64,000 nt of DNA, taken from Bifidobacterium pseudocatenulatum DSM 20438 = JCM 1200 = LMG 10505. Lineage in GTDB: Bacteria > Actinomycetota > Actinomycetes > Actinomycetales > Bifidobacteriaceae. The stretch spans positions 62,001 to 126,000 of the forward strand of contig NZ_AP012330.1 of assembly GCF_001025215.1 (NCBI RefSeq), in the 5' to 3' direction. A program made the position numbers and the translations under genes. The stretch's first letter is position 1, and each line of letters begins with the position of its first letter. Positions 1-60,494 of this stretch are shown here, piece by piece. Under the pieces are notes generated by a model. It was given only the letters and a program-made list of their open reading frames with translations. It was not told the DNA's origin and did not search any database.

Positions 1-1436
1 CGTATGTGGCTGGAACAGGGCGCCTTGCCAAAGCGGGAATCCTGATTAAAGCACAGGACGTGTTGGAAAATCTAGGTCGTGTATCGCATATTTTCTTCGA
101 TAAAACCGGCACGCTTACCGTCAAGCAACCGCAGGTCGTGCGCGTGGAGAAACCGTTCGGAACGAGTTCGCCGTTCAATGAAGACCATATTCTCATGATG
201 GCCGGTGTGGTGGAAAGTTACTCGGTGCACATTCTGTCGAAAGGTATTGCGGCGGCCGGGCGCAAGGCTATGGACGACTTGTATGCGCGATATGCGTCGG
301 GGCAGCGGTTATGCGCTGAGCGTGATTTGCCTGGGCATGGGCGCGACTATCCGGTGGTGAAGAACATTGTGGAGGATTCAGGTAAAGGTGTTTCCGGCGA
401 AGTGAACGGGCACCGGGTGCGTGTGGGGCGTTTTGCGTATGCGACGGCCGACGAATCCGGATTCATGCCGGTGTTGCATATGCCGAATGCAACGTATCAC
501 GTGTCCGATTCTCCAGAATCGGACAACCAGACGGGTGAAATGTACGCGAGGATGTCCGATTCTCCAGAAACGGACATCCAAAGGACTGAAATGCGTGCGT
601 ATGTGTCCGATTCTCCAGAATCGGACACTCTTGGAACGCGAGGTGGAGTGTCTGGCGAGGGACGGTCCACGGTTGTAGCCCCATCCGTGTCCGTCGCAGC
701 CGCGCAGACTGCATCCGCCCGCAAGCCTGAAACCGTCGGCTCGCTGTTTGCCCCGCTCGCGCCTGACGAAATGGCCGCATACGTGGCGATCGACGGCAAA
801 CTGGCCGCCCGCATCGTGCTTCGCGACGTGCCCCGTGCGAATACGAAACGTTCCTTGGCCCGTCTGCATGAGCTCGGCATCAAGGAACTGTCCATGCTTA
901 CCGGCGACAAGGCCGCATCCGCCCGCATCATCGCAAACGAGGTCGGTATCGATGACGTGCAATCCGAGCTGTTCCCTGAAGACAAGGTTGCCGCCGTTAA
1001 GAACGCCACCGAATCCATGCGTCAAAACCAGTCTATGCCCGCCCGCATCATACAGCGTATAACCGGCGAATCCAAGAATCGCCAAGTTACCATGATGGTC
1101 GGCGACGGCGTCAACGATGCCCCCGTACTTGCGGTCGCCGACATTGGCATGGCCATGACCGACGGCACGTCCACTGCGGCTTCCGAATCCGCGCAGGTGG
1201 TCATCATGAATGATGACATCGCCTCTGTGCCGCGTGCCATCGCCATCGCACGTCGTACGAAGAACGTGATGCTTCAGGCGGTGTTGATCGGCCTCGGCCT
1301 CGCCATCATCGGCATGGTCGCGGCCGCATTCAACTTGATTCCCGTGGTTGTTGGCGCATTCATGCAGGAGGTGATCGACGTGGTCAGCATTCTGTGGGCG
1401 CTCACCGTGCTTTTCGACCGCGGCGAATCCGCCTGA
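1..1436 (+). CDS. Heavy-metal-type P-type ATPase, C-terminal part (5' end outside window)
   Basis: ATP-driven cation pump of the cytoplasmic membrane, cut by the window edge. The frame is open from base 3 and leads straight into the phosphorylation motif DKTGTLT (Asp codon 99-101), so the actuator domain and first helices lie upstream. The P-domain motifs TGDK (900-911) and GDGVNDAP (about 1101-1124) follow, then two hydrophobic helices before the stop. The layout fits P1B metal pumps, but the usual His-Pro locus reads S-V-H-I (222-233), so the metal cannot be named. Three palindromic 51-base units (502-627) are read in frame inside the nucleotide-binding domain, adding a Ser/Asp/Glu-rich loop that the family normally lacks. 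The stop lies 42 bases from the convergent asparaginase gene. Confidence 0.88.
   Translation, partial: YVAGTGRLAKAGILIKAQDVLENLGRVSHIFFDKTGTLTVKQPQVVRVEKPFGTSSPFNEDHILMMAGVVESYSVHILSKGIAAAGRKAMDDLYARYASGQRLCAERDLPGHGRDYPVVKNIVEDSGKGVSGEVNGHRVRVGRFAYATADESGFMPVLHMPNATYHVSDSPESDNQTGEMYARMSDSPETDIQRTEMRAYVSDSPESDTLGTRGGVSGEGRSTVVAPSVSVAAAQTASARKPETVGSLFAPLAPDEMAAYVAIDGKLAARIVLRDVPRANTKRSLARLHELGIKELSMLTGDKAASARIIANEVGIDDVQSELFPEDKVAAVKNATESMRQNQSMPARIIQRITGESKNRQVTMMVGDGVNDAPVLAVADIGMAMTDGTSTAASESAQVVIMNDDIASVPRAIAIARRTKNVMLQAVLIGLGLAIIGMVAAAFNLIPVVVGAFMQEVIDVVSILWALTVLFDRGESA
502..627. repeat. Palindromic unit array, 3 copies, inside the P-type ATPase gene
   Basis: Copies start at 502, 553 and 604, spaced 51 bases. 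Arms are TGTCCGATTC and GAATCGGACA with loop TCCA; the middle copy has GAAACGGACA as right arm. All are read in the SDSPESD frame of the host gene (the middle one as SDSPETD). Confidence 0.95.
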
Positions 1437-1478
1437 TTTGCGAGGAGAGGTGTCATGCGCGGCGCTTTGGGGAAGCGT

Positions 1479-2489
1479 TTACAACGAGCTTGGCGAGATT
1501 TCTCCAGCGATCGATACGCGCATCCACTTGCCAAAGTCGACTCTGGTCACGCCTTGCGACAGCAGGAACATGATTTTCGCATACGTGGCTTCCAGCGTCA
1601 TATCACCGGATCCGATCGCGCCGGCGCGAGCGATCGCATCGCCCGTCTCGTAATGGCCGAGCAGTACTTCCGCCTGCTGGCATTGCGACGCGATCACAAC
1701 GGGAACGCCGTCATGCAGCACGTCGGCAATTACGTCGGTCAATCCCGGTTCGTCGCTCGGCACATTGCCGACGCCGTACGCGCGCAACAATACCGCTTCC
1801 GGACGCGGTGTAAGCATCGCTTCCAATCGCGCTGCGGAAATGCCGGGCGCCATATCAATCACGGCAACATCATGACGGGAGTAAGGTTGAGGTGACGTCC
1901 AGCCGTAACCGGCCGAAGCGGCGTCACCCGCATACCAATGCCATGGCGTGCCCGTACGAGCCAGTGGTCCGACGGAAGGCGCCGAAAATCCTTCAAACGC
2001 CCAACTCGACGACTTGCTCACGCGATTGCCGGCAAACAGGTGATGTCCAAAAAACAGTCCCACACCGTGGAATCGTCCGCTCATCGCGGCGTTCAGCGCG
2101 CCCGTGACATTCGCAGTGGCATCCGATTCGATTTTGCCGAGCGGATGTTGCGAGCCCGTGAAAATCACCGGCTTGCCGAAATCGGCCAATGCGTACGAAA
2201 GCGCGGCGCTCGAATAGCTCATCGTGTCGGTGCCATGCAGCACTACGAACGCGTCGGCATCATCGTGATGCGCACGCAAGTCATCAACCATCGTCTGCCA
2301 ATTGTCGGGCGTCGCGTTCGATGAGTCGATCAGCGGATCAAGTTCGGTGAACGTGAACAGGCTTGCGTCCATGTGCGCGTCCTCCAGCAGGCGGAACAGC
2401 CATCCGCGAGTGTCGGCGCCCGGAATCAGACCGTTCGGAGAGTCGATCATGCCGATGGTACCGCCGGTATATGTGATGTGAATGCGCAT
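1479..2489 (-). CDS. ansA: L-asparaginase
   Basis: Hydrolyses L-asparagine to aspartate and ammonia. The 336-residue product carries both threonine catalytic motifs of the asparaginase/glutaminase family: TGGTIG at residues 8-13 and HGTDTM at 85-90. No signal peptide is visible, so it is probably cytoplasmic (type I-like). The start at 2489 is chosen over a longer in-frame start at 2627 because an AAGGTGG ribosome site lies just upstream and the first motif then falls at the usual distance from the N-terminus. The gene lies 220 bases downstream of an asparagine-type permease on the same strand, which suggests joint uptake and breakdown of asparagine. Confidence 0.9.
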   Translation of the reverse strand: MRIHITYTGGTIGMIDSPNGLIPGADTRGWLFRLLEDAHMDASLFTFTELDPLIDSSNATPDNWQTMVDDLRAHHDDADAFVVLHGTDTMSYSSAALSYALADFGKPVIFTGSQHPLGKIESDATANVTGALNAAMSGRFHGVGLFFGHHLFAGNRVSKSSSWAFEGFSAPSVGPLARTGTPWHWYAGDAASAGYGWTSPQPYSRHDVAVIDMAPGISAARLEAMLTPRPEAVLLRAYGVGNVPSDEPGLTDVIADVLHDGVPVVIASQCQQAEVLLGHYETGDAIARAGAIGSGDMTLEATYAKIMFLLSQGVTRVDFGKWMRVSIAGEISPSSL

Positions 2490-4427: not shown

Positions 4428-4553
4428 TGTCCGATTCTGGAGAAACGAACATTCAAACATGCGTTTTGTTGTCTTGCTTGTCCGTTTCTGGTGAATCGGA
4501 CAAGCAGATGCATGTTTCGGTATCCCACGTGTCCGATTCTGCAGAATCGGACA
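4428..4553. repeat. Palindromic unit array, 3 copies, divergent intergenic region
   Basis: Copies at 4428, 4479 and 4530, spaced 51. The first is degenerate on the right (GAAACGAACA), the second has TGTCCGTTTC on the left, and the third is perfect with a TGCA centre. Read in the SDSGE frame the region is an open 54-codon micro-frame from an ATG at 4427 to a stop at 4589-4591. No convincing ribosome site precedes it. The rest of 4210-4693 holds no other recognisable gene. Confidence 0.93.
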
Positions 4554-6204: not shown

Positions 6205-6228
6205 TGTCCGATTCTGGAGAATCGGACA
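6205..6228. repeat. Palindromic unit, single perfect copy, intergenic
   Basis: Perfect arms TGTCCGATTC and GAATCGGACA with loop TGGA, 56 bases after the reductase stop and before the htpX promoter. Confidence 0.93.
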
Positions 6229-7851: not shown

Positions 7852-8355
7852 ATGAGTTTCAAAGAGAATCTGCAGTATCTGCGCGGTTCGCGCAACATGA
7901 CGCAGGAACAGCTGGCAATGCTGCTGGGCGTTTCCCGGCAGGCAATTTCGAAATGGGAGTCCGAGAAGGCATACCCCGAAATGGACAAGCTGCTGATGCT
8001 TTGCGACATGTTCGGCGTGACGTTGGATGATTTGGTCATGGGCGACGTGCGCGCGTCAGCGGGCTGTGGGGGTGCGGGACGCGTGGACTTGGCTGCTGAT
8101 ACGGATGGTGTGGCCGCGTCGGTTGGGGTGGCTGATGCTGCTGTTGGCGCGGTTCCGGGGGTAATCGGGTTTGCGGCATCGCAGGTCGCAGGAATGTCCG
8201 ATTCTGGTGAATCGGACGTGAGGGATACGAATCCGAATGTTTGTGCGTCCGTTTCTGGTGAATCGGACGCACAAGGTGCCAAAACCGGTGTTCAATTGTC
8301 CGTTTCTGCAGGATCGGACATGCGGGGTGGGCGGCAGGTAGGCTGGAATCCGTGA
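7852..8355 (+). CDS. XRE-family helix-turn-helix regulator with repeat-derived tail
   Basis: Probable DNA-binding regulator of 167 residues. An N-terminal Cro/C1-type helix-turn-helix (residues about 5-60, with QLAMLLGVSRQAISKWE as the recognition part) is followed by an Ala/Gly/Val-rich linker and then three palindromic units translated as SDSGESD, SVSGESD and SVSAGSD, which make up most of the last 55 residues. AAAGGGCGGA precedes the ATG at good distance. The TGA stop overlaps the GTG start of the exporter gene (GTGA), so the two are translationally coupled and the regulator may act on that gene. The ligand is unknown. Confidence 0.85.
   Translation: MSFKENLQYLRGSRNMTQEQLAMLLGVSRQAISKWESEKAYPEMDKLLMLCDMFGVTLDDLVMGDVRASAGCGGAGRVDLAADTDGVAASVGVADAAVGAVPGVIGFAASQVAGMSDSGESDVRDTNPNVCASVSGESDAQGAKTGVQLSVSAGSDMRGGRQVGWNP
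8195..8320. repeat. Palindromic unit array, 3 copies, inside the XRE regulator gene
   Basis: Copies at 8195, 8246 and 8297, spaced 51. The middle copy starts CGTCCG and ends CGGACG, a paired change at the outermost position. The first copy has T opposite G there, and the third is otherwise standard with GGATCGGACA on the right. All are in the SDSxESD frame. Confidence 0.93.
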
Positions 8356-9308
8356 ATACGGATCAGAAACTTCCCGCCGAATCCGCAGGCGAACGCCCCA
8401 GTAACCCCCTATTTGGCCATGCCATATCACACGCGGCGACACTCATCGGCCTGTTCGCAATCGTCCTGTGGGGCTTCATGGCCGGCCTCGTGCGACTCGT
8501 TTCCGAATCGTTCGGCGCCACGCTCGGCTCGGCGCTCATCTACACTGTCGGCGGCATGCTCCTGCTCATCGTGCGACGGCCGAAACCGATTAGCCAAGCG
8601 CCACGCAAGTACCTCGTCGCAGGCGGACTCATGTTCATCGCATACGAGGCGTCGATCTCGCTGTCGATCGGTCTGGCCACAACGAACGCGCAATCTGTGG
8701 AAGTCAGCCTCGTCAATTATTTGTGGCCGACGCTGCTGGTACTGATGACCGCCGCCGTGTCGCACAAACGCGGCTCGGTCTCCGAAGCGCTGCCGGGTGC
8801 AATCGTAGCCACCGTCGGCGTGGCAATGGCGGTCGGCGGTGAAAACCTTGACGTGCAGGAAGCGGTTGCCAATATCGCCAGCAATCCATTGCCGTACGCG
8901 CTCGCGTTCGCAGGTGCCTTTATTTGGGCGATTTACGCGACCGTGACGCCATCGATGTCCGATGGTTACGATGGTACGACGATTTTCTTCTGTTGCGTTG
9001 CTGTTGTGCTGTGGATTATCCATTTCGTTTCGGGCGACGGTTTGCCAGCTGTAGCGCCTGGCATCGGCGGCTATATTTCGCTGCTCGCATGTGCCGCGTC
9101 GATTGCTGGCGGCTACGCGTGCTGGGGGTATGGCATGCTACATGGCAGTATGGAAACGCTTGCGATCGGTTCGTATGCGACGCCGCTGTTCTCCACTGCT
9201 TCCAGCACGCTCCTATTGGGCGTGACGTTGGGCATGCCATTCTGGATCGGTGTCGCGCTGGTGGTAGTCGGCTCGCTGATCAACGTGTGGTTTGCGCGAC
9301 GCCGCTGA
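8352..9308 (+). CDS. EamA/DMT-family exporter, YddG-like
   Basis: Integral membrane exporter of 318 residues with about ten hydrophobic helices, the size and pattern of the drug/metabolite transporter superfamily. The N-terminal GLFAIVLWGFMAGLVRLVSE and the following GSALIYTVGGMLLL resemble the aromatic amino acid exporter YddG, which is the best guess for substrate class. The GTG start overlaps the stop of the XRE regulator by the GTGA arrangement. A palindromic unit begins one base after the stop codon and would continue in the same frame as SDSGESD. Confidence 0.82.
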   Translation: MNTDQKLPAESAGERPSNPLFGHAISHAATLIGLFAIVLWGFMAGLVRLVSESFGATLGSALIYTVGGMLLLIVRRPKPISQAPRKYLVAGGLMFIAYEASISLSIGLATTNAQSVEVSLVNYLWPTLLVLMTAAVSHKRGSVSEALPGAIVATVGVAMAVGGENLDVQEAVANIASNPLPYALAFAGAFIWAIYATVTPSMSDGYDGTTIFFCCVAVVLWIIHFVSGDGLPAVAPGIGGYISLLACAASIAGGYACWGYGMLHGSMETLAIGSYATPLFSTASSTLLLGVTLGMPFWIGVALVVVGSLINVWFARRR

Positions 9309-9309: not shown

Positions 9310-9384
9310 TGTCCGATTCTGGTGAATCGGACGTCTGAGGTGTAATGCGCCCATCTTGGTTGTCCGTTTCTCCCGAATCGGACT
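9310..9384. repeat. Palindromic unit array, 2 copies, convergent intergenic
   Basis: Copies at 9310 and 9361, spaced 51, between the exporter and the convergent YhgE gene. The second is degenerate (TGTCCGTTTC left, ends GGACT). The first begins one base after the exporter stop and is in that gene's frame. Confidence 0.9.
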
Positions 9385-9450: not shown

Positions 9451-11781
9451 TCACATCACCTTGGTGGATTCCAGATTGCGGCTCACCCAGTTGTTCAACC
9501 GGATCACCGGCTTGCGCAACACCAATCCCAGCAGCAGCGAAGGAATCAGGAACAAGGCGAGATACACCATGTCAAGCAGGTACTCATTGCCGTACGATCC
9601 GGCCATCGCGGCGTGCATGGCATCGATGGCGTGCGGGAACGGTAGGAACGGGTAGAGCATTTGGAAGAACTTCGGCAGCGTCTCGATAGGGAACGTACCG
9701 CCCGAACCGGCGACCTGCATCACCAGCAGCACCACGGCCACGGCCTTGCCGATATCGCCGAACGACACGGTCAGCGTATATACGATATTCGAGAACACGA
9801 GCGCGGCAAGCCACCCCACGGCAAGGAACTGCAGCGCATGATTCGCCTGCACGCCAAGGAAATACATGTCACCCAGGCAAACCAGTGTGCCCTGCAGCAA
9901 CGCGAGCAGTGCGAAGATCGCGTACCGTCCGAAATACTCGTGGTCGAGGCGCAGTCCCCAACGTGAGGCGTTCCCCGGGCCGGACGGGCCGGCGACGCGC
10001 GGCAGCGTGTCGCCCAAGCCCAGCACATGCGCCTTCTCGCGGTCCGAAATTGTCACTTTCAGCATGGCGCACAGGATGATCGCACCCACCCAGATTGACA
10101 GGATCGTATAGAACGGCGCCATGGCTGAACCGTAGTTCGCGATCGGGTACACTGAGACGCGATGCAGTGCGACGGGCGCGGAAATCAGCGTGGACAGTGT
10201 GGACGCGTTGGCGGTGGCCAGTGCACGTAGTTCGTCCGATTCACCCGAATCGGACGAACTGGCGTCGTTGTCACCGTCGCCACCATCGCTGTTGCCGTCA
10301 CCGGCGTTCCCGCCCGTCTCCAGCTTCGTGATCAGCTCCTTCACCGTCGCTGCCGACGAGTCGAGTTTCTTCGCGATCGCGCCGAGCGTGGAACGAATGG
10401 ATGTCACATTCGTCCCCACGTCGCCCGTCACATCGTCCAGATCGTCGGCGGTGCCGCTCAGCTGGGTGATCATGCTGTCGGTTTGGGAGATCAGCGTGCT
10501 GACTGTGGAGGCGAGCGCGTCGATTTTCGGCTTGACGTTCGTGGCGTAATCGTCGCGCACATTGCTGATCGACTGCTTCGCGGAGGTGATGCGGTTCAGG
10601 ATCTCCTTGCGGGAGCGTTCCGCGGCTGCGGTATCCTGCGTGACCTGCGTGGAAGCGTCTTTCAGCTGCTGCGCGAGCTTCTGCGAATCGCCTTTGGCGG
10701 CTTCCAGCAGCGTGATCTCTCGGTCGATGGCTTCCAGCAGCGCCTGTTTCGCGGAATCACTGTCCGGTAGTTGTTCCACCGATTCGTGCATGTGGTTGAG
10801 GCTTGTGATGTACGTGTCGTACAGCGATTCGCTGCTGGAGACTTGTTCGCTCAACGTTGTCAACTGGCTGGCTGCGGTGTCTGAGTCCTTGCCGAGCGCG
10901 TCGAACGCCTTGTTCACCTTGGCAGCTACTTGGTCGAACGCGTCTGACACCTGGTCGAGCGCGGTGTTCACTGAGGAGGTGACGTTCGCACCTGCCGAAG
11001 TGAGCGACGTGGCACCTGATTTGCCTTGCTTCAACGCGTTCTGGGCCTGTTTGCCCGCCTTGGTCGCCGAGGCGAGCAGTTTGCCCGTGGAATCCACGAT
11101 GTCGTTCGCCGAGCCGAGCAGCTGCGAATACGACGTTACCTGCTGCGATGCGCCGCTCAGCGTATCCGCCATGGTGGTGAGATTGCCGTTGAGGTTGCGC
11201 ATGTATTCGGCCATTTGCGGGCTTTGCGAATAGTGTAGGATGCTTGAGGCCAGGTCGAGTCCGACTTGCGCGATCGTTTTGGCGAAGGTTTTGTCGATTG
11301 TGTTGACCACGGTTGTCGCGCCCTGATCGGTGATATGCGGGGCGATCGGGTTGATTTTCTCGTTCAGATAGTACTTGAGCTGCGCGTGTTTGATGTCGGG
11401 GGAGAACAGCGTCATCATGTCGGCGCTGAAACCTTTCGGAATTACGATCGCCGCATAGTATTCGCCGGATTTCACCCCGTCGATTGCCTTGTCGCTTTTC
11501 ACGAACTGCCAGTCCAGCTGGTCGTTGGCGTGCAGTGTGCTGATGATGGTTTCGCCCACGTTGACGCGCACCGGTATGAGATCCGACTTGTAACCCTTGT
11601 CGTTATTGGCCACGGCGACCTTCAATGCCTTGGTGTTGCCGTAGGGGTCCCAGCTGGCCGCAATGTTGAACCAGGCGTACAGCGCCGGCACCACCACCAG
11701 GCCCATCGAGACGATCACGGCGATCACGTTGCGGGTGGCGTGGCACATGTCCCGCTTGAAGATGCCCCAGATCATTTTCAC
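9451..11781 (-). CDS. YhgE/Pip-family membrane protein, 776 residues
   Basis: Member of the YhgE/phage-infection-protein family, related to ABC-2 type permeases and to type VII secretion accessory proteins. One N-terminal membrane helix (about residues 18-38) precedes the family sequence YAWFNIAASWDPYGNT. A large extracytoplasmic region with long coiled-coil stretches (about 180-500) follows, then a C-terminal bundle of five or six helices. One palindromic unit (10233-10256) is read as SDSGESD in the low-complexity linker just before the C-terminal membrane domain. It starts at a GTG overlapping the TGA of the upstream paralogue (GTGA), so both belong to one operon. Function is not known from the sequence. 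Confidence 0.85.
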   Translation of the reverse strand: MKMIWGIFKRDMCHATRNVIAVIVSMGLVVVPALYAWFNIAASWDPYGNTKALKVAVANNDKGYKSDLIPVRVNVGETIISTLHANDQLDWQFVKSDKAIDGVKSGEYYAAIVIPKGFSADMMTLFSPDIKHAQLKYYLNEKINPIAPHITDQGATTVVNTIDKTFAKTIAQVGLDLASSILHYSQSPQMAEYMRNLNGNLTTMADTLSGASQQVTSYSQLLGSANDIVDSTGKLLASATKAGKQAQNALKQGKSGATSLTSAGANVTSSVNTALDQVSDAFDQVAAKVNKAFDALGKDSDTAASQLTTLSEQVSSSESLYDTYITSLNHMHESVEQLPDSDSAKQALLEAIDREITLLEAAKGDSQKLAQQLKDASTQVTQDTAAAERSRKEILNRITSAKQSISNVRDDYATNVKPKIDALASTVSTLISQTDSMITQLSGTADDLDDVTGDVGTNVTSIRSTLGAIAKKLDSSAATVKELITKLETGGNAGDGNSDGGDGDNDASSSDSGESDELRALATANASTLSTLISAPVALHRVSVYPIANYGSAMAPFYTILSIWVGAIILCAMLKVTISDREKAHVLGLGDTLPRVAGPSGPGNASRWGLRLDHEYFGRYAIFALLALLQGTLVCLGDMYFLGVQANHALQFLAVGWLAALVFSNIVYTLTVSFGDIGKAVAVVLLVMQVAGSGGTFPIETLPKFFQMLYPFLPFPHAIDAMHAAMAGSYGNEYLLDMVYLALFLIPSLLLGLVLRKPVIRLNNWVSRNLESTKVM
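10233..10256. repeat. Palindromic unit, single copy, inside the YhgE gene
   Basis: CGTCCGATTC and GAATCGGACG around ACCC. The outermost T-A pair is replaced by C-G on both sides, keeping the stem perfect. On the minus-strand gene it again reads SDSGESD. Confidence 0.93.
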
Positions 11782-14561
11782 TGTTCGTTCCCCTCCTCAC
11801 GCAGACTCCTGCCAGCATTTCCGTCTGTGTTTCCAGCCGCATACTCAGCCGTATACTCAGCCGCATGTTCAGCCGCATGTCCGGCCGCATGTCCGGCCGC
11901 ATGTCCGGCCGCATGTCCGGCCGCATGTCCGGCCGCATGTCCGGCCGAACCACCATGCGCAGCCGCATACAGCCTCGTATGTATGGCATGCATCGGCTTG
12001 TAATGCATGCCCGGCCGGAATAGCAGGTTCTCGTGCAGGATCGCGCTGCGGAACTCTTCCGCACTCATCGCTTCCTTGCCCAGATAATTCGCATACCGTT
12101 CGCGCAGATACTCCACCACGATGAGATACGTGTCGATGGCGATGATCGAAATGATCCAACCGAGCAGCATGGCGAGCTTCATGCGCGTGATGAATAGCAA
12201 CAGCAGGAACACGAACGGCAGTACCGCCAGCGCGAGGAATCCCCAGCGCACCAGGCGCGGGTACAGGCGGAAGAAATGAATCGCCCGTCTGCGGGCGAGT
12301 TCGGGGAACTCCTCGGCGATCTGCTGCGCGGTCTCGGTGAGCCGCAACGGTTCCACCGTGCCTTCGTTATGTTCGGTGATCATCAGATCAGTGTCCGCCA
12401 GACGGTTGTCGAACAGGCGGTTGAGGTTCAACGCCAGCTTGCGGACGACCAAGCCGATGAACAGCGCCACAGGCAGATACCAGAACAGCGAGAGCATGTC
12501 GATCCAATAATGGTTGGCATACATGCCGCCGATCGGCCCGCGCATCGCGTTGATGCCGTAGGTGAACGGTAGGAACGGTTTCAGACGGCGGAAGAATTCC
12601 GGCATCATCTCGATGGGGTAGAGGCCTGCCGCGCCCGGAATCTGGATGATCACCAGAATCACGGCGACGGCCTTGCCGATATGCCGGAACGCCACGGCGA
12701 GCGCGTAAATGATGTTCACGTAGACGAACGAGGCGAAAATGCCGGCGAGGATGAACAGGAACGGATGCTCGCATTGGATGCCCAGCGCGAGATCGCCGAT
12801 CGTGGCGATGATCGCCTGCAGAAATCCGACCGTGACGAACAGCAGCCAACGGCCCATATAGCCTTGGCGTGGCGTGTACATGCGGATCTTCTCATCGCGG
12901 TCCACTTCAAGCTTGTAGATCGCGACGAGCACGAATCCGCCGACCCACAGCGCAAGATTCGTGTAGAACGGCGTGACCGCGGAACCATAGTTTTTGACCG
13001 GGTAGAGGACCTGTTCGTCCAAATGCACCGGCTCGCCCACGAACGAGCCGACCTCGCTCGCGTCAAGTCCGAGCGCTTGGGAAAGCTGCTGGAACATCGC
13101 CGAACTGCTCAACGCGGCCACATCGGTGCGCGTGGTGTTGAGCTGTTTGGCGAGATTGGCGAGCTGTGTCTGCGTGCCAGCAATGGTGGTGTTCGTTTGG
13201 GTCACGGTGCGCGACAACTGGTCGAGCAGCCCGTTGCCCTGTTCCAGCGTGCTTTGCAGCGTGGTAAGCGTGCCGGACAGCGACCCATTGGCCAGGCTGA
13301 GTGTATCGAGCCCGGTGTTGAGATTCGGCATGACCGTGCCGGTGATGGTCGTGCGTGCGCTCGTCATCGACGCCGTGCCGTTCTTCGCCAGCGTGGTGAC
13401 ATCGTCGTTGAACCCGTTCGCGGTGTTCTTCCCCGCGTTGATCGCAGCCGTGGTGTCCTGATCGAAGGCGTCGATGCGCTGCTGCTGGAACGTCAGCTGT
13501 TTGCGGGCTTCGGCGAGCTGCGCGGAAAGATCCTTATACGTTTGGCTGTTCGGATCCAGCTGGCTGGCCTGCAACGCCTTCTCCACGCCGTCGAGCACGG
13601 TGCCGGTGGTGGTGTTGATGCGATGCATGGTGCTGGACACTTGGTCGAGCGCGTCCTGCGTGGTGTTCAGTCCGCTGAGCACGGTGCCGGTGGCATTGCT
13701 CACGTTGACCTGCAGGCCGGACAGTTGCGTGCTGCCGTTGTCGAGCGCTCCGACCAGCGTGTTCGAGAATCGTTCGGTTTGTGTGCGCGTCTCGCTCAGC
13801 AAGTCGGACGCCTTGCCGACGGTGTCAAGCGAGTTGGTGATTTCCGAGGCGAGCGCGATGTTGGACTGTTTGGCCGAATCGATGGTGGTGAGGGCCTTGT
13901 CGAGCGTGGAACGGGTGTCGCGCAGCTGCTGTTGGACGGTTTCGAGCTGGTTGATGGTGTCGGTCAGATCGTTGATGACGTCGCTTTGCGCGCTTTTCAC
14001 GCTGCCGGTGGTTTCTCCCGCTGCCTCCTTTACTTCCTTCGCCACGGCGTCGGCCACGCTGGAAACGAAAGTGGTGTTGATCTGCTCGTCGATCGTGGTC
14101 GCGCCCGTATCGGTGATTTTCGGCGCGATCGCGTTCAGCTTTTCGTTGATGTAGTACGTGATCGACGGTCGGTCGCCTTTACCGGTGACGGTGCCGATGA
14201 GTCTGGAGCTGAAGTCTTCCGGCAGTACGATCGCCGCATAGTATTTGCCGGATTCCACGCCTTCGATGGCTTGCTGCTTGGGAACGAAATGCCAGCCGAG
14301 CTGATGGTTCTTCTTAAGCTGGTTGACGGTCTGCTGGCCAGCGTCGAGATGGCCGACCAGCGTGGAGGTTGTGCCCTTGTCCTCGTTCGCCACAGCGACT
14401 TGGATGTTGCCCGTGTTCGCGTACGGGTCCCAGTTGGCGAGGATATTGCACCATGCGTACAGTGATGGGATGATAGCCACACCCAGCGTGACGACGAGCG
14501 CCACAGGGTTCTTCAGAATGCGTTTCACGTCTCGAAGGAAGATGGCGAAAACCTGGTGCAT
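11778..14561 (-). CDS. YhgE/Pip-family membrane protein, 927 residues
   Basis: Paralogue of the next gene and first in a two-gene operon. N-terminal helix at about residues 20-40 followed by LYAWCNILANWDPYANT, an extracytoplasmic coiled-coil region (about 180-530), a bundle of C-terminal helices, and a cytoplasmic tail with two further hydrophobic segments. The extreme C-terminus is a run of AGHA four-residue repeats encoded by 12-base tandem repeats (11841-11948). The ATG at 14561 has GAGGAGG upstream and is preferred to the in-frame start at 14624. A role in envelope or secretion biology is only inferred from the family. Confidence 0.84.
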   Translation of the reverse strand: MHQVFAIFLRDVKRILKNPVALVVTLGVAIIPSLYAWCNILANWDPYANTGNIQVAVANEDKGTTSTLVGHLDAGQQTVNQLKKNHQLGWHFVPKQQAIEGVESGKYYAAIVLPEDFSSRLIGTVTGKGDRPSITYYINEKLNAIAPKITDTGATTIDEQINTTFVSSVADAVAKEVKEAAGETTGSVKSAQSDVINDLTDTINQLETVQQQLRDTRSTLDKALTTIDSAKQSNIALASEITNSLDTVGKASDLLSETRTQTERFSNTLVGALDNGSTQLSGLQVNVSNATGTVLSGLNTTQDALDQVSSTMHRINTTTGTVLDGVEKALQASQLDPNSQTYKDLSAQLAEARKQLTFQQQRIDAFDQDTTAAINAGKNTANGFNDDVTTLAKNGTASMTSARTTITGTVMPNLNTGLDTLSLANGSLSGTLTTLQSTLEQGNGLLDQLSRTVTQTNTTIAGTQTQLANLAKQLNTTRTDVAALSSSAMFQQLSQALGLDASEVGSFVGEPVHLDEQVLYPVKNYGSAVTPFYTNLALWVGGFVLVAIYKLEVDRDEKIRMYTPRQGYMGRWLLFVTVGFLQAIIATIGDLALGIQCEHPFLFILAGIFASFVYVNIIYALAVAFRHIGKAVAVILVIIQIPGAAGLYPIEMMPEFFRRLKPFLPFTYGINAMRGPIGGMYANHYWIDMLSLFWYLPVALFIGLVVRKLALNLNRLFDNRLADTDLMITEHNEGTVEPLRLTETAQQIAEEFPELARRRAIHFFRLYPRLVRWGFLALAVLPFVFLLLLFITRMKLAMLLGWIISIIAIDTYLIVVEYLRERYANYLGKEAMSAEEFRSAILHENLLFRPGMHYKPMHAIHTRLYAAAHGGSAGHAAGHAAGHAAGHAAGHAAGHAAEHAAEYTAEYAAGNTDGNAGRSLREEGNEQ
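11841..11948. repeat. 12-base tandem repeat in the tail of the 927-residue YhgE gene
   Basis: Six near-identical units of ATGTCCGGCCGC from 11877 to 11948 are preceded by three diverged units from 11841. Unit length is a multiple of three, so copy-number change would add or remove AGHA blocks without shifting frame. Confidence 0.95.
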
Positions 14562-19041: not shown

Positions 19042-19069
19042 GCCTGGCTGAATTCGGCTGGACTCTGGA

Positions 19070-19093
19070 TGTCCGAATCTGCGGAATCGGACA
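19070..19093. repeat. Palindromic unit, single copy, between ClC and crcB genes
   Basis: Left arm TGTCCGAATC, loop TGCG, right arm GAATCGGACA. The symmetry extends outwards: CTCTGGA before it is complementary to TCCAGAG after it, giving a longer stem than other copies. Confidence 0.9.
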
Positions 19094-19227
19094 TCCAGAG
19101 TGCATACGTTGGCGCTCCGTGTAAACTCATATGCGTTAGGAAGGCGGCAACCGCGGCCCAGCTCGTTGTTGCACGGCCTATGGGCGGAACAACGCTGTCC
19201 GCAGGAGGCCAGTACAGGGGGAGCGCA

Positions 19228-20322
19228 ATGGAATCGCAAGAACAATCGCCGGGAGACGTGGTGACTGCGGGTGAGGACTCGCATCCCATCACGCAGACAA
19301 TCGACACTGTTGAGGTGACGCATGCTGGTGCAACCGCGCCCGCCGCTAACACCATGGATCCGCCTACGATTCCCCTGGCACCGATGAAACGTATGCAGGC
19401 GCGGTTCAATCCGCTCGCCGACGGACTGATGTATGTTGTGGTGTTCGTCGGTGGATTTGTTGGAGTCGGCTGTCGGCATGCGTTGGATATGCTTCTGCCG
19501 TCGGTCAGCGGGACGCCGTTCGTTGTGGGCACGTTTGTGTCGAATATGGTCGCCTGCTTCCTGTTCGCGATGCTGACCGAATTCATGGCGACCGCTTCGT
19601 GGCTGCGTCGCCGGGTGCGGCAGGTTGTCAGCCGTGGCGTTGGGCTCGGCTTGCTCGGTGGGCTTTCGACGATGTCCGGCGTGATGCTGGAAACGATGGA
19701 AGGTCTGCACGAGCGGCATATCGCCAGTGCGCTTGGCTATCTTGCGGGAAATTTTGCAGGCGGTTTGTTCACTGCCGCCGCCGGCGTGGTTCTGATGCAG
19801 GCACTGCTGTCACGGAGTACTCGAAAGCGGGTTCGAGGTGCGTTTTCAGCTGTTTCCGTGTCCGATTCTGCCGAATCGGACACGCAGGGCGTACGCCATG
19901 TGAAAGTGGCCGACGTAGCGCGTTCTGCCGCGCAGGCCGCAATGGAAGCCGCGCAGGCGGCGCAGCAGGCCGCGCAGGCGGCCCAGCAGATTGCACAGAC
20001 GGGACAGGTTCCGCGAGTCGAAACGCCAACCGTGCCGCCGACCGCCAGCCAGCCTATGCAGACAGGCCGCGTTCCGCAGATTCCTCCGCTGGCCGTTCCT
20101 CAGCTGACACAGCCATCGCAGCCGTTGCTGCGCGAGCCGGATACTCCAGACTTGGGGCAGCTGCCCGAGCCGATTCAGCAGTCGCAACCAATCCAGCAGC
20201 CCCAGCAGCAGTCGCAGCCGATCCGGCAGCCGGCCAACCCGCTTCCGCCCAGCTTCGAGCCCAAACCGATCACTGCGGAGATTTCGCTTGTCGCCGACCC
20301 GGCTACCGGGGAGGTGCGCTGA
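19228..20322 (+). CDS. crcB: CrcB/Fluc fluoride channel subunit with long C-terminal extension
   Basis: Subunit of a small fluoride exporter. Residues about 70-200 form a four-helix CrcB domain with GGFVGVGCRH, a GTFVSNMVACF helix and GLLGGLSTMSG, matching the G-x-x-R, GT-x-x-N and G-G-x-ST pattern of Fluc. It is unusual in having an acidic N-terminal tail of about 60 residues and a C-terminal extension of about 160 residues: first a palindromic unit read as SDSAESD, then Ala/Gln heptad-like repeats, then a Pro/Gln-rich stretch. ATG 19228 has AGGGGGA upstream; the frame is open back to an ATG at 19069 inside another palindromic unit. The stop overlaps the next crcB start. Confidence 0.83.
   Translation: MESQEQSPGDVVTAGEDSHPITQTIDTVEVTHAGATAPAANTMDPPTIPLAPMKRMQARFNPLADGLMYVVVFVGGFVGVGCRHALDMLLPSVSGTPFVVGTFVSNMVACFLFAMLTEFMATASWLRRRVRQVVSRGVGLGLLGGLSTMSGVMLETMEGLHERHIASALGYLAGNFAGGLFTAAAGVVLMQALLSRSTRKRVRGAFSAVSVSDSAESDTQGVRHVKVADVARSAAQAAMEAAQAAQQAAQAAQQIAQTGQVPRVETPTVPPTASQPMQTGRVPQIPPLAVPQLTQPSQPLLREPDTPDLGQLPEPIQQSQPIQQPQQQSQPIRQPANPLPPSFEPKPITAEISLVADPATGEVR
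19859..19882. repeat. Palindromic unit, single perfect copy, inside crcB
   Basis: Arms TGTCCGATTC and GAATCGGACA, loop TGCC, read as SDSAESD at the junction between the CrcB membrane domain and its C-terminal extension. Confidence 0.93.
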
Positions 20323-25147: not shown

Positions 25148-25375
25148 TGTCCGATTCTGGAGAATCGGACAACTGGAACGTACTTTTGGGCGCGTGAATG
25201 TCCGTTTCTCCCGAATCGGACAACTACAGGTCAAAGTGGGGTGCTTGAATGACCGATTCTGGAGAATCGGACAACCGTGGGTCTGTTTTGGTGTTCCGGT
25301 TATCCGTTTCTGGTGAATCGGACAACCGGAACATGTTTTGAGGCGCTTGGATGTCCGATTCTCCAGAATCGGACA
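25148..25375. repeat. Palindromic unit array, 5 copies, convergent intergenic (largest in window)
   Basis: Copies at 25148, 25199, 25250, 25301 and 25352, all exactly 51 apart. The first and last are perfect; the others carry single left-arm changes (TGTCCGTTTC, TGACCGATTC) or, in the fourth, two (TATCCGTTTC). Linkers share only short stretches such as an opening AC, a central T- or A-rich block and GCGCTTGA/GTGCTTGA near the end. The array lies between the YesL terminator and the end of the GH13 gene. Confidence 0.95.
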
Positions 25376-42873: not shown

Positions 42874-43125
42874 GAATGCTTCCTCTTCTTGGGTGCCTCG
42901 GCAATATTCGGCAAATTCGGCAAAAGTTTGCGATCTTGGCGATGTTGCGTTCGGCAGTAGTGGTAGGTGACGCGCCTATGGTTTTTGGTATGGCGCGTCT
43001 TCCCCGATTGTAGCTGTAGCGCGTGGATTCGGTTTCATAGTGTTCAATAGTTCGATAGTTCAATAAAATGAAGGTTTTGGGAGCAATGGTTGGTGCTGCT
43101 TGAGCGCTACGGGCTGGAGGTCGTC

Positions 43126-46100
43126 ATGGCATTCATCAAAGACATGGTGCGTATGTGGTTGCATGCGTGGAAGCGATTCATCTCCATCGCACTGATCTCG
43201 TTGCTGGGCGTCGCCGTGCTTACGGGCATTTACGCGGGTTGCCGAGACGCTTTTCTTGCGACGGATCGTTTTTTCGACACCCAAGGATTGCACGACATTC
43301 AGGTGTTGTCGACGGCCGGATTGACCGATGACGATATTGCCGCGCTCCGTAAGATTTCCGGTGTCGCGAAAGTGCAGGGCGAACGTTCGCAAACCGTGAC
43401 CGTCGATCTGAACGGCAAAAAAACCGTGACCATGCAGGAGATCGGCACGAACGGCATTGACCAGCCGTATTTGCAAAGCGGACGCATGCCGGAGAAGTCC
43501 GGTGAGATCGCGGTGACGCGCAAATTCATCAAGGATTCCGGATATAAAAAGGGCGACCATATTACGGTGACACCGCAGGATTCGGCGTCTTCTTCTGTGT
43601 CCGATTCTGCAGAATCGGACAATCAAACGGGCGAAAACGGGTCCCAGATGTCCGATTCTGCAGAATCGGACACGCAGGATGGCAAACGTGCCGCACGGGT
43701 GACCGATTCTGGTGAATCGGACAATCAGGCACCGAGCTTCCCCACCGAACTGACTATTGTGGGCGTGGTGCTTGACCCGCAGGATCTCACCAATCCAGAC
43801 GGCTATTCGGGTACGAACGCATTCCGTTCCTCCGCCACCAGCGACTACACGTTCTTTGCGCCGTCCGACGGTGTGACCGGCAGCATGTACACGGCCGTCA
43901 CCATTCTCGTGAAAGGCACCGCCGACAAGGACTCGTTCAGTGACGTGTACGACGACACCGTCAGCGAAGTAGCTGACCGCATCGACGGCACGGTGCGAAC
44001 CAATCGCCAGAAAGCGCGTCATCAGGAACTACTCGACGCTGGAACCAAACAAATCGACGAGGCGAAAGCGCAAACCGACAAACAGTTCGCCGCAGCGCAA
44101 CAGCAGATCGACAGCAATCGCAGCCAGCTCAATCAGCAAATCGACCAAATCGTCAATATGCAGGCGGGCGCGGCTGCAGGATCCCTCGACGAAACAACCC
44201 GTGAAACACTACGTGAAACGGTAATTGCCGCAAGCCCGCAATTAGCGGAAGCCAAAGCGCAACTCGACCAGGCACAATCGAAATTGGACCAGCAGAAAAA
44301 AGACACCGAACGGACACTGCAATCCAAGCAAAACGAGCTGGAAGACAGCATTCCGCAAGTGCGTTGGTATGTGCAGGACCGGTCGCAAATCGGCGGATTC
44401 AGCTCGCTGAAATCTGATCTGGAATCCATCCAATCGCTGGGCAACGCATTCCCGATCGTGTTCTTGCTCGTGGCGGTGATGATGAGTCTGACCGCCATGG
44501 CGCGCATGGTCGAAGAGGATCGCGGGCTGATCGGCACATACACAGGGCTCGGCTACGGGCGTCTTGCGGTCGCCTCACGATACCTGTTGTTCGCGCTGTT
44601 CGCCTGCCTGATCGGCGGTGGACTCGGCCTGATCGCAGGCTTCCTTGGCATTCCGGCGTTCCTGCTCGTCGTATTGCGAGGCTTGTATGTGATGCCGGAC
44701 GTACGCTTGGCATACGACTGGCTGTACGGAACGGCCGGAGTCGCGCTGTTCGTGGTCGGCGTGCTTGCCGCAACCGTGTATGCGTGCGCGCAGGAAATGC
44801 GACAGAAGCCGGCCAGTCTCATGCGTCCGAAAGCGCCGCGTGCAGGATCGCGCATTCTACTGGAGCGTATCAAGCCGTTGTGGAATCGCATGAGCTTCCT
44901 CGGCAAAGTCACGGCGCGCAACATTTTCCGCTTCAAATCGCGTCTGATCATGACGGTCGGCGGCGTGGCCGGCTGCACCGCGCTGATTGTGTGCGGACTT
45001 GCGATCAACGACACCGTTGCCGCATTGGGCGCGAAACAGTATCAGGACGTGTATCAGTACGATTTGATGGTGGTCGCGAACGATGATGACGCTGATGCGA
45101 TGCGGCAGAAAGTCGCTTCGGATGGTCGCGTCACGTCGAGCATGGACGTGCGCGTTGAATCGGGTGATTTGACCGGCGATTCGGGGAGCGAAAGCATTCA
45201 GCTGGTTGCCGTGCCCGACAGTGAACGCAGCGAGTTCGGCAAGATGGTCACGTTGCAGCCGGTGCGCTCCAGTTGGGTGGATGGTGCGGCCGATACGGTA
45301 AGTCTGGGCGATGACGGCGTGATCGTATCGCAGTCCGCGGCAAGCGCGATGGGCGTCAAAGCGGGCGGTATGGTAACGCTGACCAACGGTGACGATATGC
45401 AGGCCGAAGCGCATGTCAGCGCGGTGATCCGCAGTGTGATCGGATCGGACGTGTATGTGAGCGAAACCTATTATCGCCAGCTGTTCGATACTGCTGCATC
45501 CGGCACGTCTTCCGCATCTTCCGCGTCCGATTCTGGAGAATCGGACAATCAAAACGGCGAATCCGGTACCTCGAATGGCGCATCGTCAAACGGCCAACAA
45601 TTGGTGTGGAACGCCATGTATGCGAAGCTCAAAGGTTCAGGCGAATCCCAGGCCGCCTATGCGGAAAAGCTGGAAGACGACGATGCGGTCATGAAAGCCG
45701 TGAGCTGCGCGCACATGGCGGAAAGCTTCAAATTCGATCTGATGGGTGCGGTGGTCGCGCTGATCGTGGCGCTCGCGGGCGGGCTCGCGCTCGTGGTGTT
45801 GTTCACGCTCGCCAACACCAACGTGTCAGAACGTGAACGCGAGATGGCCACGCTCAAGGTGCTCGGATTCTTCGACAAAGAGGTTCACCACTATGTGAAC
45901 CGTGAAATGATGGTGCTCACCATGATGGGCGTGGTGCTGGGCTTGCCTCTCGGCCGTTTCGTCGGCGGATTGCTGACGGCTGCGTTGAATATGCCCGCAC
46001 TGTATTTCGAAGTGGAATGCACGCCGTTGAGTTATGTGATTGCGGCCGGCGCGACCATGGCTTTCGCGCTGCTCGTGCAGTTGTTCGTGAATCCGGTGTT

Positions 46101-46156: not shown

Positions 46157-46282
46157 TGTCCGATTCTCCAGAATCGGACAACTAGACGGGTAAAAGTGCG
46201 TTACGGTTGTCCGTTTCTCCAGAATCGGACAAGTAATGCGGCGAAAGTGCCCTGTGGTTGTCCGTTTCTCCAGAATCGGACA
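46157..46282. repeat. Palindromic unit array, 3 copies, convergent intergenic
   Basis: Copies at 46157, 46208 and 46259, spaced 51; the first is perfect, the others have TGTCCGTTTC left. The array starts 13 bases after the FtsX-type stop and is in that gene's frame. Each copy is followed, one codon later, by a stop codon (TAG, TAA, TAG) where coding copies mostly have Gln. Confidence 0.94.
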
Positions 46283-48567: not shown

Positions 48568-49757
48568 CGGCACGGTTGCGTGAGATGGAGGAAACGGCGG
48601 AATGGCATGACGGTCGTTGGCCGTCACCCGAAGAGGCTCCGATGGGTGGTCGACTTTCGTTGGAAAGTCGCTTTCCGTCGTTCGAAGAGGCGATTGACGT
48701 TGCCGACGAAATGCGTCAACGACGTCACGCTCGCGGCAAAACGCTGGCGATGCGTGCGATTGCGGCGCTGTTGATTGTCGCTGCGATCTGTATTGGCGGT
48801 TTTCCGGCGATGTTGCAGTATCGGTCGGCGCGTGATCTGTCGGGAACGTCGGTAAGATCCGCGCATACGGTTGCGGGCTGGCCGTATCCGCAGGCGGATG
48901 ACGCGTTCGCCGCGGCCCAGGACTATAACAAGCGGCTTGCGGAATCCGGACAGCCGATTTTGGGTGAGGCGAAGGATCCGTTCGCTGATGTGCGCGGAGG
49001 ATCGCGTGCCAGTGTGTCCGATTCTGGTGAATCGGACAATGAAGCGGGTGAAAGTGGACCACAGTTGTCCGATTCTGGTGAATCGGACAATCAGAGTGGT
49101 GCGGGTACAGGCGCGGACGCCGGTTCCGCGGACGCTGGTTCCGCAAGCGCCAGTTCGGCGGACGCGGAGTACCGGAGTCTGTTGGATTCCGGCGGTGGCG
49201 TGATGGGTACGATTCGCATTCCGAAAATTTCCGTGAGACTGCCGATCTACCATGGCACCTCCGAATCGGCGCTCGCCTCGGGCGCGGGCCACCTGTACGG
49301 CAGCAGCCTGCCAGTCGGCGGCAAGAGCACGCATGCGGTGCTCACCGGGCATCGCGGACTGGTCGAGGCGGCCATGTTCACGCGGCTCGATGAAATGCGT
49401 GTCGGCGACTACTTCTACATCGAAGTGATGGGTCGAACGCTCGGCTATCAGGTGGACCGTATCACGGTGATCGAGCCGAACGACACGTCGCAGCTGAAAA
49501 TCGTGCCTGGTGAGGATCGCGTGACCCTGATGACCTGCACGCCGTATGGCGTCAACACGCACCGTCTGCTGGTTTCGGCCACACGTTCCGCCATTCCAGA
49601 TGAGATTCCCGCCGAAAACGACGCGGTGAAGGATGCCCGCGCGATTGGTGCGATCACAGGTATTGCGACTCTCGTAGTGGGCGTGTTGTTGGTTTGGTTG
49701 CGACGCAAGCCGTGGCATATTCGCAGGCATGCTGCTTGGTGGCCGAAGCGTGGCTGA
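48564..49757 (+). CDS. Class C (pilus-assembling) sortase
   Basis: Membrane transpeptidase that polymerises pilin subunits. The 397-residue product has an N-terminal helix (about residues 75-95), a lid motif D-P-F at 138-140, the catalytic His263 (TGHRG), Cys325 in TLMTC, and Arg334 (THRLLV), then a C-terminal helix. Two palindromic units are inserted about 12 residues after the lid motif, before the catalytic barrel. GTG 48564 overlaps the preceding stop; ATG 48585 is an alternative start. The two genes after it encode LPLTG pilins, its likely substrates. Confidence 0.93.
   Translation: MTARLREMEETAEWHDGRWPSPEEAPMGGRLSLESRFPSFEEAIDVADEMRQRRHARGKTLAMRAIAALLIVAAICIGGFPAMLQYRSARDLSGTSVRSAHTVAGWPYPQADDAFAAAQDYNKRLAESGQPILGEAKDPFADVRGGSRASVSDSGESDNEAGESGPQLSDSGESDNQSGAGTGADAGSADAGSASASSADAEYRSLLDSGGGVMGTIRIPKISVRLPIYHGTSESALASGAGHLYGSSLPVGGKSTHAVLTGHRGLVEAAMFTRLDEMRVGDYFYIEVMGRTLGYQVDRITVIEPNDTSQLKIVPGEDRVTLMTCTPYGVNTHRLLVSATRSAIPDEIPAENDAVKDARAIGAITGIATLVVGVLLVWLRRKPWHIRRHAAWWPKRG
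49015..49089. repeat. Palindromic unit array, 2 copies, inside the sortase gene
   Basis: Perfect copies at 49015 and 49066, both with TGGT loops, read SDSGESD. The linker encodes NEAGESGPQL. Confidence 0.95.
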
Positions 49758-54978: not shown

Positions 54979-55002
54979 TGTCTGATTCTGCAGAATCGGA
55001 CA
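54979..55002. repeat. Palindromic unit, single copy, intergenic
   Basis: TGTCTGATTC, TGCA, GAATCGGACA, with one C-to-T change in the left arm that leaves a G-T pair in the stem. It lies 27 bases after the copy B stop. Confidence 0.88.
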
Positions 55003-59067: not shown

Positions 59068-59091
59068 TGTCCGTTTCTGCAGAATCGGACA
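59068..59091. repeat. Palindromic unit, single copy, in the thiS leader
   Basis: TGTCCGTTTC, TGCA, GAATCGGACA, between the riboswitch terminator and the thiS ribosome site, so it is transcribed in the thi mRNA leader. Confidence 0.92.
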
Positions 59092-59106
59092 CTCAATGCT
59101 GGTACG

Positions 59107-59221: not shown

Positions 59222-59315
59222 CAACCCGTCTCCTTACGGCGGCATTACCCGCATCAAGTCCTCGGTCGAAGCTTTATGAGCTCCCTCTCAGCCTTTCGGC
59301 TCCCGTTCGGTTGTG
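59222..59315 (-). promoter_or_regulatory. TPP (THI-box) riboswitch
   Basis: On the minus strand ACAACC (59310-59315) and GGTTGT (59222-59227) close the first stem. The hallmark CTGAGAGGG is at 59284-59292 and the second conserved part, TGATGCGGGTAATGCC then GTAAGGAGA, at about 59233-59259. It controls thiS-thiF-thiG by transcription termination. Confidence 0.93.
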
Positions 59316-59420
59316 CCTTTATCTTCGCGCACGCGCCCGACAAGCTTGCGCCGGTTCACGTTGGGTTAGTCTTGATGTGAACATGTGCGAATCGGCTGCG
59401 TGCTTGCAAGGAAGGGGAAG

Positions 59421-60494
59421 ATGATGATGAACGGTGAGTTGGCAGGATTTACGATTCCTCGGCTCGGCATGGGAACGATGGCTTTGGCGATTGAGGGGCG
59501 TCCGGATCGCGATACTGCGATTCGTACGATTCACGCCGGTTTGGACGCGGGTGTTCGCTATTTGGATACGGCTTGGTCGTATTATCTGCCGAGCGAGCCT
59601 GGCACTGGCACTGCGAAAGATTTGGGGTACGGCGAAAAGTTGGTGCGTGATGCGCTCGCTTCGTGGAATGGCCCCCGAGATGAAGTGCTGGTCGCCACGA
59701 AAACTGGCTATCGACGCACCATGGAGGTCCCCGCTTTTGTTGCTCCTGTGTCCGATTCTGGAGAATCGGGCACACAGGGTGCCGGATTTGGAGTACAGAT
59801 GTCCGATTCACCAGAATCGGACACTCAGGGGCGGGATTCTGAGGGATGCGGCCGTCGGCCTGGCGAGGAACGCCAGCATTTGCAGGCGGCGGGCAGTCAA
59901 TACGGGTGGATGGCGGATTCGCGCCCCGAAACCATGATTCGTGACGCCAAGGAATCCGCGCTGCACTTGGGCGTCGATACGCTCGACCTGTTGTATTCGC
60001 ACGGCCCCGATCCCGCGGTTCCTTACGAAGACCAATGTGGCGCGTTGAAACAGCTGCTCGACGAAGGCGTGATCAAATATGCGGGCATCTCCCGTGTGAA
60101 TAACGAGCAGATCGATCTTGCGCGCAGCATTATCGGCAACGGATTGATCGCCGTGCAGAACCAGTTCTCGCCATCGCACCCTGATCCTGAGCGTACGATG
60201 GAGCACTGCAAGGAGTTGGGGCTTGCATTCGTTTGTTGGAGTCCGCTCGGCGGCTTTCTTGATGCGTTCGACCATCGCGCGTACGACCTGTTCCGTGAAG
60301 TCGCAGGCAATCATGGCTGCTCCTACCAGCGCGTGGTGTTGGCATGGGAATTGACTCGTTACGGACGTCTGTTCACCATTCCTAGCGCCCGCAATCCTCA
60401 GGAGATCAACGATTCCTTTGCCGCCGCCGAATTGACGCTTACATCGGACGAACTGGCGATGTTGAACACGTCAGTTGACGCCCGTCGCGGCTGA
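59421..60494 (+). CDS. Aldo/keto reductase with a repeat-derived surface-loop insertion
   Basis: NADPH-dependent oxidoreductase of 357 residues with the AKR catalytic tetrad Asp49, Tyr54, Lys94 and His194 (RYLDTAWSYY, VATKTGY, LLYSHGPD). Between the Lys94 strand and the His194 strand is an insertion of roughly 60 residues carrying two palindromic units, read SDSGESG and SDSPESD. This is the loop region over the active site. GGAAGGGG lies before three successive ATG codons (59421, 59424, 59427). Substrate unknown; it is divergent from the thi operon. Confidence 0.9.
   Translation: MMMNGELAGFTIPRLGMGTMALAIEGRPDRDTAIRTIHAGLDAGVRYLDTAWSYYLPSEPGTGTAKDLGYGEKLVRDALASWNGPRDEVLVATKTGYRRTMEVPAFVAPVSDSGESGTQGAGFGVQMSDSPESDTQGRDSEGCGRRPGEERQHLQAAGSQYGWMADSRPETMIRDAKESALHLGVDTLDLLYSHGPDPAVPYEDQCGALKQLLDEGVIKYAGISRVNNEQIDLARSIIGNGLIAVQNQFSPSHPDPERTMEHCKELGLAFVCWSPLGGFLDAFDHRAYDLFREVAGNHGCSYQRVVLAWELTRYGRLFTIPSARNPQEINDSFAAAELTLTSDELAMLNTSVDARRG
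59749..59823. repeat. Palindromic unit array, 2 copies, inside the aldo/keto reductase gene
   Basis: Copies at 59749 (right arm GAATCGGGCA) and 59800 (loop ACCA), spaced 51. The linker encodes TQGAGFGVQM. Confidence 0.94.

Follow-up and report, generated by a model that had tools for sequence, protein, structure and literature searches.

A family of 24-base palindromes repeated every 51 bp in Bifidobacterium: candidate sites of a chromosome-organising protein, or a selfish repeat

Repeated chromosomal sites serve as landmarks for a DNA-binding protein in the RacA/ram, RefZ/RBM (RefZ-binding motif) and SlmA/SBS (SlmA-binding sequence) systems; passages of PMC6593407 and PMC6657595 describe ram sites as dense near the origin and the positions of RBMs relative to oriC as conserved in Bacillus. 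Repetitive extragenic palindromic (REP) sequences of the CGTC-tagged type, as excerpts of PMC3733652 describe them, are short palindromes with a 4-5 base loop and a CGTC or TGTC end, have intragenic copies and lack an associated transposase; their tag is unpaired, their stems begin with AT, their units dimerise head to head and seldom cluster, and most families are genome-wide. The same excerpts assign two Rickettsia palindromic elements, RPE-4 and RPE-6, to the CGTC REPs. We report here on a family of 24-base palindromes in a 64-kb window of the Bifidobacterium pseudocatenulatum DSM 20438 chromosome (bases 62,001-126,000 of 2,313,752; the first gene is dnaA), where copies follow one another every 51 bp. 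Genomes of our set of 112 Bifidobacterium genomes are designated by G-numbers, G000 being the genome that holds the window.

The palindrome resembles the CGTC-type REPs but fails to show two of their defining features. Its first four bases pair with its last four, leaving no unpaired tag, and in place of an 8-9 bp stem starting with AT it has 10-bp arms reading TGTCCG(A/T)TTC; only the loop length (4) fits. It also differs from those REPs in being a symmetric palindrome, in forming 51-bp arrays and in being region-bound in the mapped genomes of the B. adolescentis group. Unlike the sites of RacA, RefZ and SlmA, the palindromes form exact 51-bp arrays, occupy one side of oriC only, lie in many cases within genes and are known from the DNA sites alone. 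With Rickettsia palindromic elements they share in-frame copies inside diverse proteins; the sequence differs. The original prediction placed the family in no recognised class. An Rfam search of the window, which returned tRNA only and no match to the palindromes, agreed with this, but the repeat was already in print: Table 1 of PMC4521832 (2015) lists it as an 'Undetermined' clustered regularly interspaced short palindromic repeat (CRISPR) of B. dentium (8 repeats) and B. ruminantium (16), with 'N' for cas at both arrays. Beyond that paper the repeat was not met in the literature searched (top matches only, few subscription journals covered), and among the matches listed with the 10-base half palindrome it was the only Bifidobacterium paper.

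Searching the window with TGTCCGATTC-N4-GAATCGGACA (≤3 mismatches) recovered 33 matches where 0.02 were expected from 100 dinucleotide shuffles. They were grouped at 16 loci of 1-5 copies each, and within each locus the period was exactly 51 bp, consisting of 24 bp of palindrome and 27 bp of spacer. This confirmed the number of copies and loci originally predicted and all the start positions except one, the copy given as 45534 really starting at 45524. Our own gene calls reproduced the predicted split of 16 copies inside genes and 17 between them. All 16 coding copies were read in a single frame, giving the peptide SDSxESD or a near variant.

To describe the site, we compiled 586 unique copies, a collection conditional on ≤3 mismatches. 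Both arms followed one position-specific profile. Positions 2, 4, 9 and 10 were nearly fixed (C at position 4 in 583 left and 584 right arms, T at position 9 in 583 and 583, C at position 10 in 581 and 578), positions 3, 5 and 6 were moderately variable, and position 7 was A or T. Changes in both arms of one copy were found at position 7 in 3 sites, against 16.7 expected if the arms varied independently, with pairing kept in 2 of these, and were absent at positions 5 and 6 (4.1 and 1.5 expected); at position 1 they were commoner than expected (6 sites versus 3.2). Compensatory stem changes amounted to 2 at position 7, 6 at position 1, 2 at position 3 and none at the other seven positions. The centre was GG in 242 sites, CC in 194 and GC in 140 (576 together), never CG, and otherwise composed in 10. 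Spacing was 51 bp in 313 of 349 close pairs. Among 114 non-redundant spacers, conservation reached 7.9 bits, versus at most 2.0 after shuffling, and was located mostly near the ends, symmetrically; the 27-bp spacers were otherwise largely unconserved. This conservation at spacer ends, a weaker preference for pyrimidines and purines, appears to widen the site to roughly 38 bp.

Copies within genes were constrained at the DNA level. In the whole of G000, 24/24 coding copies were in one frame, and a mismatch to the palindrome was present at only 3 of 144 positions where a synonymous change was possible. At five codon positions, the palindrome base was used in 91-100% of 23 copies, compared to 34-60% predicted from codon usage. 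Synonymous positions are therefore held by selection or homogenisation acting on DNA, and not on the peptide alone.

The G000 genome contains 59 copies (≤3 mismatches), 56 of them in the first 326 kb from dnaA and 3 at 1.905 Mb. Across the genus (≤2 mismatches), 20 of 112 genomes matched, 12 with 29-73 copies, B. ruminantium among them with 69, one (the B. adolescentis-like G001) with 13 and 7 with 1-6. Copies near the origin accounted for at least 69 of 77 in G028, 52 of 59 in G041 and 39 of 42 in three stretches of G006. Wherever assemblies of the B. adolescentis group allowed sites to be positioned, almost all of them were within about 300 kb of oriC. In G006, the interval 1.75-1.95 Mb carries on the left arm what is the origin-proximal right region of other species, with tetR on the opposite strand, which indicates an inversion around the origin. 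A scan of GTDB contigs with a near-exact pattern returned 63 stretches, of which 60 were from Bifidobacterium; the remaining three had one place each.

In the B. longum group, palindrome-bearing segments were found at 118-121 kb in the B. breve-like G015 and at 126-130 kb in the B. longum-like G044, pointing to recent exchange between species. The first two sites of G015 and G044 are most likely imports, since their flanks were mostly 97-99% identical to catenulatum-group genomes (one flank, 90-94%). Palindrome searches in parts of G044 and G074 revealed no comparable array beyond the G044 copies already known. G074 has a different dispersed palindrome, of the type GCTCCCCTC-N-GAGGGGAGC, with 15 copies in its first 160 kb.

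A second lineage carries a variant of the palindrome. With the core pattern GTCCGAT-N8-ATCGGAC (one mismatch), we counted 99 copies in G072, 33 in G071, 27 in G068 and 15 in G017; sequences were inspected for G072, G071 and G017, G068 being known by count alone. The G072 consensus, CGTCCGATNC, has a different centre and a free position 9. On contig C19 of G072, 26 of 36 close pairs were 51 bp apart and 5 were 102 bp apart (≤2 mismatches). The two genes on either side of window position 6205 have orthologs in G072, with an array between them. The second lineage retains the 51-bp period with a shifted consensus.

Arrays change in length by whole units. Orthologous arrays were of equal length in 152 of 230 comparisons, and 43 of the 78 unequal ones differed by a multiple of 51 bp (both directions counted). 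Four relatives whose flanks at one locus are near-identical held 1, 2, 4 and 4 units there, with some spacers in common, as if units had been lost from a longer array. Old loci are retained: 13 of 26 loci are common to G028 at 81% flank identity, and the G028 copies have 0.84 mismatches per 20 arm positions. We compared each part of the unit separately in 101 unit comparisons from at most 76 array pairs of equal length, with flanks pre-selected to be alike and loci recurring across pairs. Differences affected 59/2020 arm positions (2.9%), 61/404 in the centre (15.1%), 102/729 in spacers (14.0%) and 259/7400 in flanks.

We propose, with a probability of roughly 0.4, that the palindromes are double-stranded DNA recognition sites of a dimeric protein, set in phased arrays, with a preferred role in organising or anchoring the origin-side part of the chromosome in the B. 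adolescentis group. Each palindrome would be the site of one putative sequence-specific dimer, with TGTCCG(A/T)TTC as half-site, weaker preferences extending outward and an almost G/C-only centre. Such a protein is favoured because the profile is position-specific, symmetric and detectable at the DNA level, and because two-arm changes are few. Since the rigid 51 bp is, by its length, near five helical turns, neighbouring dimers would face the same side of the helix and could assemble a co-operative nucleoprotein array. Recombination between copies would add units of 51 bp to arrays or remove them, each unit probably having a palindrome at its centre. The chromosomal role is preferred because of the location of sites in the first lineage and by analogy with RacA, RefZ and SlmA. 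We infer protein binding, the dimer, co-operativity and the chromosomal role from what was observed directly, namely the sequence, the spacing, the constraint on DNA within genes, the location and the 51-bp steps. A more specific proposal, which we consider doubtful, is that of a second, ParB-independent centromere-like or anchoring system, in which phased 51-bp arrays would be served by a dedicated dimeric protein whose specificity has shifted between the two lineages and which is failing in B. adolescentis.

Several observations weigh against the main proposal. The 100 kb to the left of dnaA in G000 contain no copies even at 5 mismatches, which is odd for an origin-centred function. In G006, the palindrome region sits on the other arm, and the B. 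adolescentis-like G001 has only 13 copies. The 99 sites of G072 are spread over at least 10 contigs, with 28 of them on the contig that carries dnaA and parAB; origin proximity is therefore not general. Copies seem to exchange centre and spacer, so that homogenisation or mobility may account for part of the conservation, and part of the loci behind the profile were fetched by near-exact matches. Related spacers, up to 21/27 alike, occur at distant arrays in both orientations, which makes past dispersal of the palindromes likely. No candidate protein tracked the sites among TetR, small helix-turn-helix (HTH), XRE, extra ParB and MerR proteins compared. Finally, near-clean palindrome-free alleles exist at three loci (G028 114773, G028 208900 and G000 108157; eight cases aligned). 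The chromosomal role is weakened by these empty sites, by the exchange between copies, by the one-sided location and by the dispersal of sites in the second lineage.

Palindrome-free alleles were first sought with a strict flank test, by which the unit was missing in 4 of 337 comparisons. This filter was too tight and hid cases: when up to 90 bp of unaligned flank was allowed, the unit was missing in 184 of 825, many being the same loci viewed from several species. In most of the 184, diverged sequence occupied the place of the array; a few were near-clean. At G028 114773 (1 copy), G001 was 51 bp shorter, and 150 bp shorter than B. moukalabense (3 copies). At G000 108157 (3 copies), G001 was 153 bp shorter, 102 bp shorter than N4G05 (2 copies), and only 40-42 bp shorter than G020, G019 and G041 (1 copy). 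At G028 208900 (2 copies), G000, G019 and G041 were each 99 bp shorter. Other palindrome-free loci gave differences of 71, 135 or 144 bp and more. In the tidy cases, the difference comes closer to 51 bp per copy than to the length of the visible array, suggesting a 51-bp unit centred on the palindrome. The absence of the array at 208900 from three relatives hints at a gain in G028. Units thus come and go between species. The proposed invasion of reading frames by the element is supported as far as presence/absence differences go; these may be gains or losses.

We examined several candidates for the cognate protein. In G000 and relatives, tetR and ftsY are separated by an array, and the TetR beside ftsY has matches in 99/112 genomes. 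Among 30 tetR-ftsY loci fetched, palindromes were present in 9 and absent from 21; the 29 readable loci all had the same recognition-helix stretch. TetR was rejected because the recognition helix is the same in genomes without sites. A small HTH/zipper protein encoded at 116446 has no close relative in the site-rich G030 and G046 and a close one in G100, which has 2 core-pattern matches. The XRE gene at 69852 (window 7852) is absent from the corresponding place in G019, a genome with 29 copies. Neither extra ParB proteins (112 genomes) nor MerR counts (20 genomes) showed a pattern with the sites. The palindromes lack the parS core (GTTTCACGTGAAAC), and canonical parS are separate sites, mostly left of oriC. 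In the B. longum-like G044 we found no ParB_N match and no parS at one mismatch; ParB_N was present in 110/112 genomes and parS in 9/10 searched. In many genomes of the genus, ParB_N matches parB as two separate stretches (~3-50 and 51-95) of one frame, the pattern that an insertion within the domain would give.

Recognition of double-stranded DNA by a protein would fit the sequence patterns better than RNA hairpins or CRISPR. That the palindromes act as RNA, in the form of transcribed hairpins or terminators, is very unlikely. At the orthologs of window position 6205 in G001 and G019, a longer stem has the palindrome at its top, shows compensated changes in its outer bases and runs into T6, which resembles a terminator, and the excess of two-arm changes at position 1 points the same way; but one-sided, pair-breaking changes at position 7 are common, compensated ones number 2 in 586, and half of the copies lie within reading frames. 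One array folds strongly as RNA, as any array of palindromes would. Orphan CRISPR arrays, as this very repeat was listed for B. dentium and B. ruminantium in Table 1 of PMC4521832, are barely credible even though 24-bp repeats alternate with 27-bp spacers: the arrays are many, short and scattered, single copies occur, some of these and of the arrays lie within genes, the ends of spacers show symmetric conservation where CRISPR spacers should be pattern-free, and no cas genes are entered for them in that table. Operators of a transcription factor, forming a regulon of phased palindromic sites, would account for the symmetric half-site profile, the array beside tetR and the enrichment of intergenic arrays (13/26 in the 326 kb of G000 versus 3.2 expected; 4 divergent versus 0.9). 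However, the other 13/26 arrays are coding, 4 are convergent, the inspected flanking genes are of unrelated kinds and the tetR recognition helix is unchanged in genomes without sites, making a regulon unlikely. Sites of site-specific recombination bounding removable cassettes are less probable still. Two length differences between species, of 2.6 kb and 0.8 kb, are bounded by palindromes, and the 51-bp steps in array length would be expected, but in the eight species pairs most indels of at least 150 bp lack a palindrome at their ends, and homologous recombination between repeats gives the same pattern.

The alternative that carries most weight is a REP-like selfish repeat, a miniature element of about 51 bp spread, with no benefit to the host, by some recombinase or transposase that recognises the arms; we consider it nearly as likely as chromosome organisation, and the symmetric profile could equally stem from the enzyme that moves such a repeat. 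In its favour are palindrome-free alleles that at some loci fall short by about 51 bp per copy, spacers alike at distant arrays in opposite orientation, neighbouring spacers that by eye are related in G072 arrays, coding copies all in one harmless frame in G000 and a patchy distribution across the genus; the CGTC/TGTC ends and 4-base centre recall the CGTC-type REPs, likewise without transposase in the excerpts of PMC3733652. On the other side, length differences of 40 and 42 bp and those at the less tidy loci do not fit a 51-bp unit, the differences may be losses as well as gains, near-perfect copies are kept at old shared loci, and copies are confined to about 300 kb in mapped B. adolescentis-group genomes. 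The original prediction had any mobilising enzyme act from elsewhere; a RAYT in this role is not supported, a Y1 transposase being present in only 4 of 16 carriers, and among the 12 that lack it are G028, G038 and G072. The predicted lack of transposase and RAYT genes in the window holds for Y1/RAYT, the type scanned for, and the sole G000 match to Y1/RAYT is at 1.697 Mb. Should a protein bind the sites, a genus common in the human gut would possess a hitherto undescribed DNA-binding system of chromosome scale, with a target list, a consensus and a spacing rule. If they are selfish, a REP-like family with a rigid 51-bp unit has been written into proteins as SDSxESD linkers. Under either reading, 'undetermined CRISPR' appears to be the wrong label for the repeat of B. 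dentium and B. ruminantium.

Within the window, the first array (502..627, copies at 502, 553 and 604) is inside a gene which, from its DKTGTLT motif, we take to be P-type-ATPase-like, and encodes SDSPESD, SDSPETD and SDSPESD. A second array of three (4428..4553, copies at 4428, 4479 and 4530) is intergenic, and a single palindrome (6205..6228) is located 57 bp after a gene, with 1-4 copies at the orthologous site in other species. An XRE-type (HTH_3) gene, 7852-8355, contains three copies (8195..8320) in its 3′ portion. An array of two (9310..9384), common to many of the species compared, separates the convergent EamA transporter gene 8352-9308 and ABC2-membrane gene 9451-11781; the latter, on the minus strand, contains a single copy (10233..10256). 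The single palindrome at 19070..19093 is intergenic by the gene call used, although the longest open reading frame (19069-20322) would start within it, and another (19859..19882) is inside gene 19228-20322, presumably CrcB-like. The longest array, of five (25148..25375, spacing 51-51-51-51), lies between convergent genes.

The FtsX-permease gene 43093-46143 contains an array of three (43598..43723) and a single copy (45524..45547). It is followed by three palindromes between convergent genes (46157..46282), which correspond to G000 108157, the locus with the palindrome-free allele in G001. Two copies (49015..49089) are inside gene 48585-49757, which we assume to be sortase-like. One palindrome (54979..55002) is found 27 bp after a small gene with a weak HTH_Tnp_2 match. 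The intergenic copy at 59068..59091 is represented by two units in G020 and G041, precisely 51 bp longer there. Conversely, the array of two (59749..59823) inside the aldo/keto-reductase gene 59421-60494 is reduced to one unit in G001. A separate repeat, at about 11880-11950 of the window, consists of five 12-bp direct repeats resembling TCCGGCCGCATG.

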